DNA from: a virus
DNA: 40,392 bases
IMG/VR virus record: IMGVR_UViG_3300037247_002067
Coordinates: 1-40,392 of that record
Reading direction: 5' to 3' (one strand)
Made by a program: the position numbers and the translations under genes. The notes beneath the pieces are model-generated. The model saw only the letters and a list, made by a program, of their open reading frames with translations. It ran no database searches and was not told the DNA's origin. Shown piece after piece: positions 5,525-14,326 of the stretch (position 1 is the stretch's first letter; each line of letters starts with the position of its first letter).

Positions 5525-5745
5525 ATCTTCCTCCCTTAAAACCCATAAGAGAAGTCCTTCTTCGAAGGGATATTGAGTTAAGGAAGCTACTTTCTTCTCC
5601 CCTCCTTAAAGTTAGAAAGAAGAAGGTTTCATTAAAAGTAGCACTAGAGAAGGCGCTTGATGATAAGGAGTTTTTATCCCTCCTTAAGGAGGGGGGTTTT
5701 TTATGCGAAACGGGTGGGCCTTTCACAATGGAAGATGCAATATAA
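5521..5745 (+). CDS. Hypothetical protein, 74 aa, with a terminator-like hairpin inside its coding sequence
   Basis: GTG 5521 overlaps the preceding stop as GTGA and follows GAGGAAGGG. The protein is Leu/Lys-rich (PLKPIREVLLRRDIELRKLL, then VALEKALDDKEFLSLLK). Codons near the 3' end contain a perfect CCCTCC-TTAA-GGAGGG hairpin followed by six T residues. Part of the transcript may therefore end before the stop codon. The C-terminal 18 residues after the hairpin look less protein-like. No family is recognised. Confidence 0.5.
   Translation: MNLPPLKPIREVLLRRDIELRKLLSSPLLKVRKKKVSLKVALEKALDDKEFLSLLKEGGFLCETGGPFTMEDAI
5678..5702 (+). terminator. Intrinsic terminator or attenuator ahead of the structured RNA
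   Basis: CCCTCC (5678-5683), TTAA and GGAGGG (5688-5693) are followed by GGG and TTTTTT (5697-5702). This is a near-ideal intrinsic terminator, but it lies inside an open frame. It also presents AAGGAGG at ribosome-site distance from the ATG at 5703. It could limit read-through from the small-gene operon into the RNA region. Confidence 0.6.
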
Positions 5746-5786
5746 CGGCGTTCAAGGTGGAAAGCGTAGATACTCGGCAGGTGTAG
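5703..5786 (+). CDS. Possible 27-aa peptide overlapping the structured RNA
   Basis: ATG 5703 lies about 9 nt after AAGGAGG and opens 27 codons (MRNGWAFHNGRCNITAFKVE, and on to TAG at 5784). It runs into the first helix of the RNA. It could be a leader peptide, or chance. Translation here would interfere with folding of the 5755-5769 strand. Confidence 0.25.
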   Translation: MRNGWAFHNGRCNITAFKVESVDTRQV

Positions 5787-6240
5787 AGTTAATAAACATA
5801 CCCGATCAGGGCGGTTCGATTCCGTGATACTTGGTAGAGTGAAGATTGGGGGTTATAGGTGGGTTCGAGTCCCCCCTACGCTTTCTATCTAACGAACGAA
5901 TCAGCGGGGTGCCTTCTGCCTCCGCTGGATGGGATTGTTAAATGGAAATGGCGAGTTGAAGTGGCGAGGGTTTTAGGAGGCATCCTTCATAACCGGCTTC
6001 GCCGACTGAAGCGTACACTTAGCTACGCATGTAGGACACACCTACATTCATTTCCATTTAACAAGTGGAAATGGCCGACGAGCCACTGGCTTTGGTCGTG
6101 CTTTGTTGGATTTACGGCGGGGATCAACGGGACCGGTTGTGAGATAGACGGAATAGGGCAGAAACCATGTGTTGATCCGGCCGGAAGCTGCATGACGCTA
6201 TGCCCCTATACTCCTACGCCTGGGAGGACCCCGCGCCGTA
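5755..6240 (+). ncRNA. Putative large structured RNA, about 486 nt, with tRNA-like 5' domain
   Basis: The 6061-6240 part is about 57% GC, in a phage that is visibly AT-rich elsewhere. Helices read directly: 5755-5769/5876-5890 (15 pairs, two G-U); 5772-5775/5786-5789; 5805-5808/5825-5828 with 5812-5814/5822-5824 above it; 5859-5863/5871-5875 (one mismatch); 5902-5907/5922-5927; 5935-5950/6049-6064 (16 exact pairs); 5985-5989/6007-6011 enclosing 5994-5997/6001-6004; 6012-6015/6024-6027; 6029-6035/6041-6047; 6076-6079/6095-6098 enclosing 6081-6084/6088-6091; 6114-6120/6231-6239 with a 2-nt bulge; 6121-6128/6171-6178; 6190-6193/6200-6203; 6211-6214/6223-6226. The first domain carries T-arm-like loops (GGTTCGATTCC, GGGTTCGAGTCCC) and a D-arm-like hairpin. 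An open frame covers 5859-6305, but its product is Trp/His/Arg-rich and unconvincing. GOLLD and ROOL are known phage-associated large RNAs of comparable style; identity with either is untested. Confidence 0.65.
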
Positions 6241-6279
6241 AATTCAACAGAGAAGCGGCCCGCATTTTATGGTTATATT

Positions 6280-6501
6280 ATGAAGATAGATCGGTCTCAA
6301 TTTAATTGGCCTAAAGACCCTGAAAGCGGAAGATACATTTGCACAAAAGAGAAACCAATGCCTGTCAACCACAGCCATATTGGGCGTCTATGGATGCACC
6401 TGGATGCTGATGTAATAGAAGAGGATGGTCGTCAAGGCTTTGATGAAAAATATAAATGCCCTCATTGTGGCGTAATGTGGTGGACTGAATGCGATGGCTA
6501 A
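6280..6501 (+). CDS. Zinc-knuckle protein, 73 aa
   Basis: The ATG at 6280 has no obvious ribosome site and lies 40 nt after the RNA block. The product has a Trp/His-rich middle (NHSHIGRLWMHLDADVIEED) and one C-terminal knuckle, YKCPHCGVMWW, with another Cys two codons later and one earlier Cys in YICTKEK. It probably binds a metal ion. The family is not recognised. Confidence 0.6.
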   Translation: MKIDRSQFNWPKDPESGRYICTKEKPMPVNHSHIGRLWMHLDADVIEEDGRQGFDEKYKCPHCGVMWWTECDG

Positions 6502-11842: not shown

Positions 11843-12041
11843 AGATTATAAGAAGAGTGCTATACCGAAAGCTCCTACTAGAGAACTGCGAGAGGTTACA
11901 GACATTAGTTTTTATGCTGGCGTTCTTGGGGCTTTAATAGTTCTTAATATAAAGGAAGGTCGTGTAGAGAAAGAGGGCGAGTTTAATTTGCGTACAGCTT
12001 TACATGACTACGTCCCTGGATTAGAAAGAGTTAAAGAGTGA
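11832..12041 (+). CDS. Hypothetical protein, 69 aa
   Basis: ATG 11832 follows GGAGG inside the end of the previous gene; a TTG at 11826 is in frame. It has an N-terminal polar segment with AIPKAPTRELREVTD, a small hydrophobic helix (SFYAGVLGALIVLNI) and a charged end. Its stop overlaps GTG 12038. The family is not recognised. Close coupling suggests a polymerase accessory. Confidence 0.55.
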   Translation: MTIEDYKKSAIPKAPTRELREVTDISFYAGVLGALIVLNIKEGRVEKEGEFNLRTALHDYVPGLERVKE

Positions 12042-14326
12042 TAGTTAAACCGGATGGTCCGATTGATGCTAGGATTTTACTTCTAGGAGAAGCTCCCGGA
12101 AGGGAAGAGGATTTGGTAGGGAGACCTTTTATCGGTGCAAGTGGGAGGCTTCTTTCTCAACTTCTTAAACAAACGGGAATAAAAAGGGAATCTTGCATCC
12201 TAGCAAATGTAATTCCACTAAGACCCCCGGATAATAAATTAAGTCGGCTAGAGGAGACTGGGTTGACGTTGGAGAGGTGTAAGAAGGACATAGTTAAGTA
12301 CCTTATTGAGTTAAAGAGAGGGGGTTTTTTAAACGTTATTATACCTCTTGGAGCGATAGCGCTAGAGACACTGATGGGGAAGACAAGTGTCTCTAAATGG
12401 AGAGGCTCAATTCTAGAATCCACCACCGTACCGGGTTTAAAAGTGGTGCCCACTTTCCACCCAGCTTACTTAATGCGTTCTATTATGGATACTCCTCTTG
12501 TGATAGTTGATTTTAAGAAAGCCCTTCTTGAGTCTAAAAGTCCCTTTTTACAAAAAGAGAAAAAGGTGATTCTAACCCGGCTTCCTTTTGAAAGGATAAT
12601 GGAGGAGCTTTCTTCGCTAGAGAAAGAACCTTTCCTTTCCCTTGACATTGAGACTGTTCAAAAGACAGGCATCATCAAGTGTGTTCAACTAGCTTCTTCT
12701 TCTAAAAAGGCTCTGGTTATTCCAATTTGTAACGATGGACCTTATTGGACTTTAGAGGAAGAAGTTTTAATATGGGAAGCGTTAAAGAAGCTTCTCTCTT
12801 CTCCTACCATAAGAAAGATTATCCAAAATGAACACTTCGAGAAGACCCTTCTTTACCCTTATGTAGGGGAGATAGCTCCTATGATGATGGATACTATGAT
12901 TGGACATCATCTTTGTTACCCTGAGCTTAAGAAGAACCTTGCACTCCTTACTTCCCTCTACACGAATGAGCCTTTTTATAAAGACGACGCCAAGGATGCT
13001 TTTTATCAAGAGGATGCACTTTGGGAATACGGAGGGAAGGATGCTCTTGTAACATTTGAAGTTGCATTTAAGTTAAGAGGAGAATTAAGGGAACTAGGGA
13101 TGGAAACTTTTTTAAGTGAATACCAACAACCTTTCTCTCACCTTATGTGGAAGGCTAGTATGATTGGGATTAAAGTAGATGTTGGGAAGGTAAGAGAACA
13201 TAGAAGGATCGCTGAGGGTAAGCTAGCGGAAGCTCGTAGTGAGCTGTTTAAGATAGCCGGGAAGGTTATTAATGTGAATAGTCCAAAGCAAGTGGCAAGG
13301 TTTGTTTATGATGACTTGAAGTTACCGAAGCGGTTCTCCAGGGCAACTGGGGGGGTTACTACGGATGAGAAGGCTCTTCTTAAGCTCTCTAAACTATTCC
13401 CCCATCCGGCGATTAAGGCTCTTTTAGAGGCTAGGAAGTGGATTAAGTTGATAGGAACCTTTTTAAAGGAGTTCTGGGATGCTGATGAGAGGGTAAGATG
13501 TAGCTGGGTTATTACCGGAACTGTTACCGGGAGGCTTTCTTCTAGGAAGAACATTTTCGGGACCGGTTTGAATATGCAGAATCTTCCTTCTAAAGCTTAC
13601 CCGATAAGGGATATATTTGTGGCGGATGAAGGTTCTCTTTTGATTAAAGCAGATCTGGAGCAAGCAGACGCGAGGGTAGTGGCTTATGAGAGTGAGAATG
13701 AGAAGATGATGAAGGTGTTTGAGGATGGAAAGGATATTTTCTCAGAGGTTGCAAGCTGGATATATCAAAAGAAGGCGGAAATGGTGGGTAAGGGGACTTT
13801 TGAGCGTGAGAAGGCTAAGAGGCTAGTACATGCGGCAAATTATGACATAGGCCCAAGAGCGTTCGCTTTTGAATCAGATGTAAGAGAAGACGAAGCCAAG
13901 TGGCTCCTATCTCGTTACCGCTCCCTCTTCGGCATAGAAAAGTGGCACCTTTCCATCCAACAAGAATTAAGGAAAGATCGAACCTTGGTGACTGCTCTCG
14001 GAAGAAGAAGAACCTTCTTTGATTGGTGGGGACCTTCCCTCTTCCGTGAGGCTTACGCTTATAAACCTCAATCAACCGTAGGGGATTTGATTAATCAAAT
14101 AGCTCTTGAAGTATCAAAACATCCTGAGTTGCCTTCGAGTGTAATTGTTCTTCTTCAAATCCACGATGAGTTGGTGATGCAAGCTAAGGAAGAGGATGTT
14201 TCTCTTACGGTAAGTATAATAAAGGAAGTTGCTAGAAGGAAGATTATTGAGATAAAAGGGAGGAAAGTGAACATTCCAATTAAGGTAGGGATTGGGAAGA
14301 ATTGGCTTGAGGCGGGGAGGGAGTAA
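12038..14326 (+). CDS. Family A DNA polymerase fused to an N-terminal uracil-DNA-glycosylase-like domain, 762 aa
   Basis: GTG start at a GTGA overlap. Residues 1-160: UDG superfamily (family 4 type), with LLLGEAPGREED at 14-25, GRPFIGASG and NVIPLRPP following, and HPAYLMRS at 141-148; the N-terminal Cys-x2-Cys that holds the Fe-S cluster in family 4 enzymes is absent. Residues about 195-360: 3'-5' exonuclease with LSLDIET (Asp203, Glu205), IIQNEHFEK (usual Asp replaced by Glu) and YGGKDAL. Residues about 380-762: polymerase with motif A IKADLEQADAR, O-helix REKAKRLVHAANYDIG (His where E. coli Pol I has Phe762, Tyr766 kept) and motif C IHDELV (709-711). It is the replicative enzyme of the phage. 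The UDG part may sense or remove uracil. Confidence 0.95.
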   Translation: MIVKPDGPIDARILLLGEAPGREEDLVGRPFIGASGRLLSQLLKQTGIKRESCILANVIPLRPPDNKLSRLEETGLTLERCKKDIVKYLIELKRGGFLNVIIPLGAIALETLMGKTSVSKWRGSILESTTVPGLKVVPTFHPAYLMRSIMDTPLVIVDFKKALLESKSPFLQKEKKVILTRLPFERIMEELSSLEKEPFLSLDIETVQKTGIIKCVQLASSSKKALVIPICNDGPYWTLEEEVLIWEALKKLLSSPTIRKIIQNEHFEKTLLYPYVGEIAPMMMDTMIGHHLCYPELKKNLALLTSLYTNEPFYKDDAKDAFYQEDALWEYGGKDALVTFEVAFKLRGELRELGMETFLSEYQQPFSHLMWKASMIGIKVDVGKVREHRRIAEGKLAEARSELFKIAGKVINVNSPKQVARFVYDDLKLPKRFSRATGGVTTDEKALLKLSKLFPHPAIKALLEARKWIKLIGTFLKEFWDADERVRCSWVITGTVTGRLSSRKNIFGTGLNMQNLPSKAYPIRDIFVADEGSLLIKADLEQADARVVAYESENEKMMKVFEDGKDIFSEVASWIYQKKAEMVGKGTFEREKAKRLVHAANYDIGPRAFAFESDVREDEAKWLLSRYRSLFGIEKWHLSIQQELRKDRTLVTALGRRRTFFDWWGPSLFREAYAYKPQSTVGDLINQIALEVSKHPELPSSVIVLLQIHDELVMQAKEEDVSLTVSIIKEVARRKIIEIKGRKVNIPIKVGIGKNWLEAGRE

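Follow-up and report, generated by a model that had tools for sequence, protein, structure and literature searches.

A tRNA-like phage RNA whose anticodon loop is replaced by a second T-arm

Introduction

Bacterial Y RNA (YrlA) and other tRNA mimics are non-translated RNAs that copy the tRNA elbow, and we know of no second elbow in any of them. Phages and prophages also carry large structured RNAs of unknown function, GOLLD and ROOL, often with tRNAs nearby (PMC12286853). The locus considered here lies in IMG/VR virus record IMGVR_UViG_3300037247_002067. Throughout, the window is the whole stretch of DNA that was analysed, positions 1-40,392 of that record (40,392 nucleotides, overall GC 40%). 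A preliminary description made from its sequence had proposed a single large RNA of the GOLLD/ROOL kind at 5755-6240. The unit that proves to be conserved is shorter, 5755-5890; its relatives stand alone, without 5891-6250. In structure and family taken together, this unit is almost certainly a tRNA-like non-coding RNA of a family absent from Rfam.

Like the canonical tRNA (RF00005, clan CL00001), the phage RNA has an acceptor stem, a GG-containing D-arm, a helix at its centre where tRNA has the anticodon stem, and a UUCRANU T-arm stacked directly on the acceptor. It differs in that a T-arm and a D-like hairpin replace the anticodon loop, in its length of 120-136 nt, and in an acceptor of up to 15 bp with no encoded CCA. 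As in tmRNA (RF00023), both termini build a tRNA-like end, but the phage RNA is far shorter, has no RF00023 match and shows no tag reading frame by ARAGORN. It differs from both GOLLD and ROOL in that its conserved part is 125 nt and tRNA-like, and neither is matched in Rfam even at E <= 10. Rfam at gathering thresholds gave no match for the RNA, and at E <= 10 the only tRNA-type match was tRNA-Sec, with 16.1 bits against a cut-off of 47, and not RF00005. There was no YrlA-type family among the matches at E <= 10, in a release (15) that may hold no such model, and no supporting Rfam match in the region for group I/II introns, RNase P, retrons or SRP. tRNA-like RNAs are already known; a T-arm in place of the anticodon loop is new as far as searched, a cloverleaf of this kind being absent from Rfam and the open-licence literature, and an earlier description is possible.

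Results

Folding of the region and its overlapping reading frame

On the + strand, 5740-6250 folds to an MFE of -194.9 kcal/mol, which is z -4.36 against dinucleotide shuffles and is reached by none of 100 of them; the - strand gives z -3.31. The helices listed in the preliminary description could be located: the 15-pair helix 5755-5769/5876-5890 (two of its pairs are G-U), the 16-bp exact helix 5935-5950/6049-6064 and the 8-bp helix 6121-6128/6171-6178. The outer helix 6114-6122/6229-6239 is also there and is longer than had been claimed, but the 8-bp helix cannot nest fully within it, because G6121-G6122 are common to both and the two cannot both form fully. GC content, put at about 57% for 6061-6240, measures 57.8%, the highest of any 180-nt stretch in the window.

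The frame 5859-6305, whose product had been judged unconvincing, found no match in a Pfam search, and its codon log-odds is 0.01 per codon against ~0.10-0.38 in neighbouring ORFs. The folding z together with an ORF that has neither family match nor codon signal points to structure beyond chance and to no protein gene. The idea of a structured + strand RNA outside Rfam is thus borne out by folding, by the Rfam scan and by covariation among relatives, described below.

Anatomy of the tRNA-like RNA

Two perfect tRNA T-loop motifs, at 5815-5821 and 5864-5870 with a D-loop-like GGUAG in between, had been overlooked. In context they read GG-TTCGATT-CC (5813-5823) and GG-TTCGAGT-CC (5862-5872), separated by the D-loop-like TTGGTAGAG. 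Both are enclosed by the 15-pair helix, whose end is the start of T-arm 2, as with an acceptor stem. The parts of the RNA, a compact molecule of 125-136 nt, are as follows.

5755-5890, + strand: the whole tRNA-like RNA (conserved core 5760-5884), from a covariance-model match, BLAST and covariation
5755-5769, + strand: 5' strand of an acceptor-like stem that pairs without interruption with 5876-5890 (15 pairs); 5763-5769 make up the inner 7 bp
5772-5789, + strand: D-arm 1, ACTC/GAGT, loop GGCAGGTGTA with a conserved GGT
5801-5807, + strand: helix K, 5' strand CCCGATC, at the anticodon-stem position; pairs with 5844-5850
5811-5825, + strand: T-arm 1, GCGG - TTCGATT - CCGT, a perfect T-loop motif; the stem flips between G-C and C-G among relatives
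5829-5840, + strand: putative D-arm-2-like hairpin, ACT - TGGTAG - AGT, by eye and outside the covariance model
5844-5850, + strand: helix K, 3' strand GATTGGG; pairs with 5801-5807
5859-5875, + strand: T-arm 2, GTGGG - TTCGAGT - CCCCC with one mismatch, a perfect T-loop
5876-5890, + strand: acceptor-like stem, 3' strand, pairing with 5755-5769; no encoded CCA follows

Read inwards from its ends, the RNA has an acceptor stem, then D-arm 1, a single-stranded A-rich stretch, helix K and T-arm 2, which is the order of the tRNA cloverleaf. In each of the four sequences T-arm 1 and the GGUAG hairpin lie inside helix K, and there is no 7-nt anticodon loop. The acceptor stem, the D-arm, helix K, the acceptor-stacked T-arm and the T-arm inside K are supported by covariation. 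For the second D-arm-like hairpin inside helix K the argument is sequence: its putative stem reads, by eye, ACT/AGT in the window, L128 and L217, ATT/AGT in L136, and ACT/AGT, CTC/GAG or GCT/AGC in the looser relatives. Judging by these motifs, the two D-loop/T-loop sets would form tRNA elbows at opposite ends of helix K and, given two elbows, the order of the inner half would be that of a circularly permuted tRNA core without an acceptor.

Relatives, models and covariation

Relatives were sought in IMG/VR by sequence patterns. Pattern 1 (T-arm, short gap, TTGGTAG, gap, T-arm), an arrangement hard for normal tRNA arrays to produce, returned L128 and L136; pattern 2, with an A-rich strand 5' of T-arm 1, returned L217; pattern 3 returned the same three loci. 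Other settings were set aside: an early T-arm pattern with a gap of up to 25 found mostly tandem tRNAs, gaps of 12-13 also pick up a stray GTTC ahead of a true tRNA, and the six matches in a scan of genome contigs were read as tRNAs or chance. BLAST against 2 Mb of sequence matched the three loci, with E values of 2e-8, 2e-7 and 2e-5, over ~105-117 nt, and RNA identity among members is 60-75%. Single-protein searches of viral contigs with the exonuclease, terminase and PolA found no close relatives of the virus, and phages with ~30% PolA similarity showed no comparable annotated gap.

Membership of the window in a two-T-arm family was tested with a model built without it, R1, from L128 and L217 only. 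The window contains a single match in its 40 kb, at 5760-5884 on the + strand, with 72.3 bits and E ~2e-15, a value that is only rough because the calibration was short; L136 matches at E 2e-9. Model R2, which has helix K in place of a TACC/GGTA helix, raised L136 from 50.7 to 59.4 bits and left the window score unchanged. The TACC/GGTA helix was rejected, being broken in L136, whereas K is kept in all four sequences; another helix, CAGGTGT/ATACTTG, which belongs to the window's MFE fold, was given up because the relatives lack it.

Alignment A5 of the four sequences has 96.4% of its cells paired, and 15 of 28 pairs carry compensatory changes; fitting to the model biases this alignment towards the structure. 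Its covariation score is 0.655 against 0.284 +- 0.057 for shuffled alignments (0 of 500 reach it), and with partners slid only 35-51% of cells pair. The close members number four, and the relatives among them were found by window-derived patterns, which select for the T-loops and for some strands; the patterns fix ~20-24 bases and the model match covers 125. At least one compensatory pair occurs in each of the five helices, namely the acceptor, the D-arm, K and the two T-arms. The acceptor, at the same place in the relatives, has 7 pairs in L128, 8 in L217 and 11 in L136, with both-sided changes in six of the seven model pairs. The D-arm 1 stem is ACTC/GAGT in three sequences and ACTG/CAGT in L136. 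Helix K has 7 bp in all four, with 100% of cells paired and both-sided changes in three pairs: CCCGAUC/GAUUGGG in the window, CCUGCUU/GGGUGGG in L128, CCUACCU/AGGUGGG in L217 and CCUGACU/AGUUAGG in L136. T-arm 2, stacked straight onto the acceptor stem in the manner of tRNA, has both-sided changes in four of six stem pairs. Single strands such as AAACA and AGTGA are identical among members, and none of the four encodes a 3' CCA. Folded alone, 5755-5890 reaches z -2.2, so that the support for the tRNA-like part is conservation, not energy.

A wider set of RNAs with several T-arms

An acceptor-like stem around two or three T-arms also occurs in L160, L178, L179, L181 and L189, and the arrangement is the same in Klebsiella phage Sugarland (L227) and Salmonella phage 19 (L193). 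Streptomyces phages Comrade and Moab (L190, L191) have three T-arms, partly annotated as tRNA-Ser. Their ~135-nt three-T-arm RNA with one acceptor stem (L190 1185-1325, L191 1186-1324, and L189 236-366; 75-77% identical) is hosted by Streptomyces Gilsonvirus phages and an uncultured phage (L189). The Sugarland element (L227 851-975) has two T-arms and an encoded CCA and lies between tRNA-Leu and the next gene; this Klebsiella RNA occurs in 34 records, with no feature annotated beneath it among the matches listed.

The Gilsonvirus (three T-arms) and Sugarlandvirus (two) RNAs resemble ours in having an acceptor stem that encloses the T-arms and in being the top match of model R3, which scores the Sugarland element at 27.7 bits and the Moab element at 23.8 bits, in each case ahead of the true tRNAs of the phage. 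They differ in their linkers and, for Sugarland, in the encoded CCA. R3 scores in the two genera are weak (24-28 bits, E 5e-4 to 5e-3), and since true tRNAs reach up to 23 bits with R3 these looser links are suggestive. L178 matched with E 4e-4 in a covariance search of its own record. Looser relatives occur within tRNA arrays, and within longer non-coding RNAs in L145 (~470 nt, terminator-ended) and a Klebsiella jumbo phage (~1.07 kb). We regard it as an evenly balanced proposition that the phage RNA is a double-headed tRNA, with two complete elbows on one helix K, one of them permuted and without an acceptor, and that it is a branch of a wider, unannotated class of phage RNAs that string two or three elbows within a single acceptor stem (Klebsiella, Salmonella, Streptomyces and uncultured phages).

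The GC-rich remainder

Downstream of the tRNA-like RNA, 5893-6246 has the highest GC in the window and strong helices.

5902-5929, + strand: GC-rich hairpin AGCGGGG...CCTCCGCT, a predicted fold; putative link to the RNA
5935-6064, no strand assigned: inverted repeat of 16 exact bp (5935-5950/6049-6064) that encloses inner stems; putative link to the RNA
6101-6252, no strand assigned: 22-nt imperfect helix, arms 6101-6122/6231-6252, 86% complementary; putative link to the RNA

The segment 5930-6066 gives z -5.6, and -4.9 on the other strand, near-equal values as for an inverted repeat. The 6101-6252 helix encloses 6121-6128/6171-6178 and a crossing helix, 6153-6158/6204-6209. A pseudoknot in 6104-6246 was considered and is not claimed, crossing helices as long being found in 33 of 1000 shuffles (3.3%), which makes it weak. 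Two copies of TGGAAATGGC compete for a single partner in the remainder. Two near-identical strands, AAATGGAAATGGC / AAGTGGAAATGGC, have one pairing partner in common (positions 5940-5952, 6049-6061 and 6063-6075 of the window), and a switch between two folds would thereby be allowed.

It could be argued that 5755-6246 is after all one large ornate phage RNA with a GOLLD/ROOL-like role, of which the tRNA-like part is the 5' domain. The low folding energy across 511 nt (z -4.36), the contiguity of a GC-rich, non-coding stretch, and the looser relatives that sit within longer non-coding RNAs (L145, Klebsiella jumbo phage) would all suit such a reading. We consider it unlikely, however, in that covariation is seen for 5760-5884 only, BLAST of 5891-6250 against the three close relatives and the other loci compared gave no match, a search for 5893-6246 in phages and plasmids found no relatives, there is no Rfam match, and the strongest piece is almost equally strong on the other strand. 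The remainder may continue the transcript of the tRNA-like RNA as its 3' part, a layout also seen in L145 and the Klebsiella jumbo phages, or it may have been inserted separately.

Genomic setting

The phages that carry the RNA are divergent. PolA of the L128 record shares 32% identity with the window's, which was not found in the L217 and L136 records, terminase similarity among the member phages is a trace at best, and the genes flanking the RNA differ. DNA polymerase I itself lies at 12038-14323 of the window, with an N-terminal part that is uracil-DNA-glycosylase-like by eye; its nearest relatives, 31-32% identical, are in phages of Microcystis, a Manatee Spring sample and a Desulfofustis phage. 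ARAGORN detected no tRNA or tmRNA, and there is no tRNA near the RNA. Directly upstream is one further feature.

5677-5705, + strand: intrinsic-terminator-like hairpin, from sequence

In all four phages the RNA is intergenic and runs in the same direction as the flanking genes; in L128 and L217 a stop codon precedes it at a distance of just 3-9 nt. This placement invites the main rival to an elbow mimic, namely a cis-acting leader of the next gene (a riboswitch, an attenuator or a T-box-like switch), as the RNA precedes a same-strand gene in every case, by 65-110 nt in three. We judge this rather improbable, given that the downstream genes differ: an unknown ORF; an unknown ORF followed by a DNA methylase; a 681-aa ORF (DNA polymerase by eye, no Pfam match); and a small zinc-ribbon-like ORF. 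Moreover, the window's next ORF begins 390 nt away, and the looser relatives lie within tRNA arrays.

Discussion

The explanation towards which we lean, by a modest degree of confidence, is a tRNA-like RNA that is excised from an early transcript and acts in trans as an elbow mimic. The RNA would be transcribed together with the flanking early genes: the stop codon 3-9 nt upstream in L128 and L217 leaves no room there for its own promoter, and hence it most likely arises as a segment of the early transcript that is then cut out. Both RNase P and RNase Z recognise the tRNA elbow together with the acceptor/T stack (PMC4810234). This allows the tRNA-like outer half to act as a processing handle, and excision by such enzymes is probable. 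Lacking an anticodon loop, the RNA cannot decode; as what is conserved is elbow geometry, the most economical role is that of a mimic for a host elbow-reading factor, which it would bind or distract. Candidate targets are processing or modification enzymes, the ribosome or a tRNA-directed defence nuclease. This putative mimic or decoy function is the more tentative part of our proposal. The window's 15-bp acceptor and absent CCA are a poor fit to ordinary tRNA maturation and count against the explanation.

Two further readings fare much worse. The RNA might be a functionless relic of tRNA genes that recombined, two tRNAs joined into a decaying chimera; phage tRNA arrays do recombine, the D- and T-arm motifs are duplicated and ARAGORN sees no tRNA. 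This is very unlikely, as four diverged phages keep the same chimera, each of whose helices shows compensatory changes and whose single strands such as AAACA and AGTGA are identical, and it would require that all four copies were recently transferred, against which the 60-75% identity speaks. That the frame 5859-6305 is a protein-coding gene and the helices accidental is scarcely credible: the frame is open for 148 codons and has a GTG start, but it lacks a family match and a coding signal, starts within T-arm 2, and is missing from the relatives, which are intergenic.

An excised elbow mimic would bear on a debated matter, the purpose of the many tRNAs that phages carry: here is a tRNA shape that cannot decode, yet selection keeps it. 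The shape would then be separable from translation and the elbow itself a useful part, for example in occupying host enzymes or blunting tRNA-directed defences. tRNA finders and Rfam overlook or mislabel such RNAs, as with some Streptomyces phage copies called tRNA-Ser, and the question can already be put to the test, since cultured phages carry unannotated possible relatives.

Additional observations

A ~1.07-kb unannotated region, terminator-ended, lies 3' of the tRNA array in Klebsiella jumbo phages (L192 942-2015, Klebsiella phage KpLz-2_45, MN871446). Further loci are L225, L224 1100-1300 and 1950-2010, L226 ~1500-1565, L054 770-935 and L145 4465-4935; parts of the region are found again in Shewanella phage SXP01, Erwinia phage pEa_SNUABM_10 and two viral contigs. 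The region resembles another large phage RNA; Rfam matches only a tRNA-like piece of it. In L054, 1262-1322 is a ~60-nt mini-tRNA within a tRNA array, with acceptor GGCTTACG/CGTAAGCC, GGTAG and a T-arm and no anticodon arm. In L160, a near-identical direct repeat, TTTATAACGGTTAAAGTAATAAACTACSCAGTYGTTAT, stands on both sides of the RNA (1-40 and 203-242).
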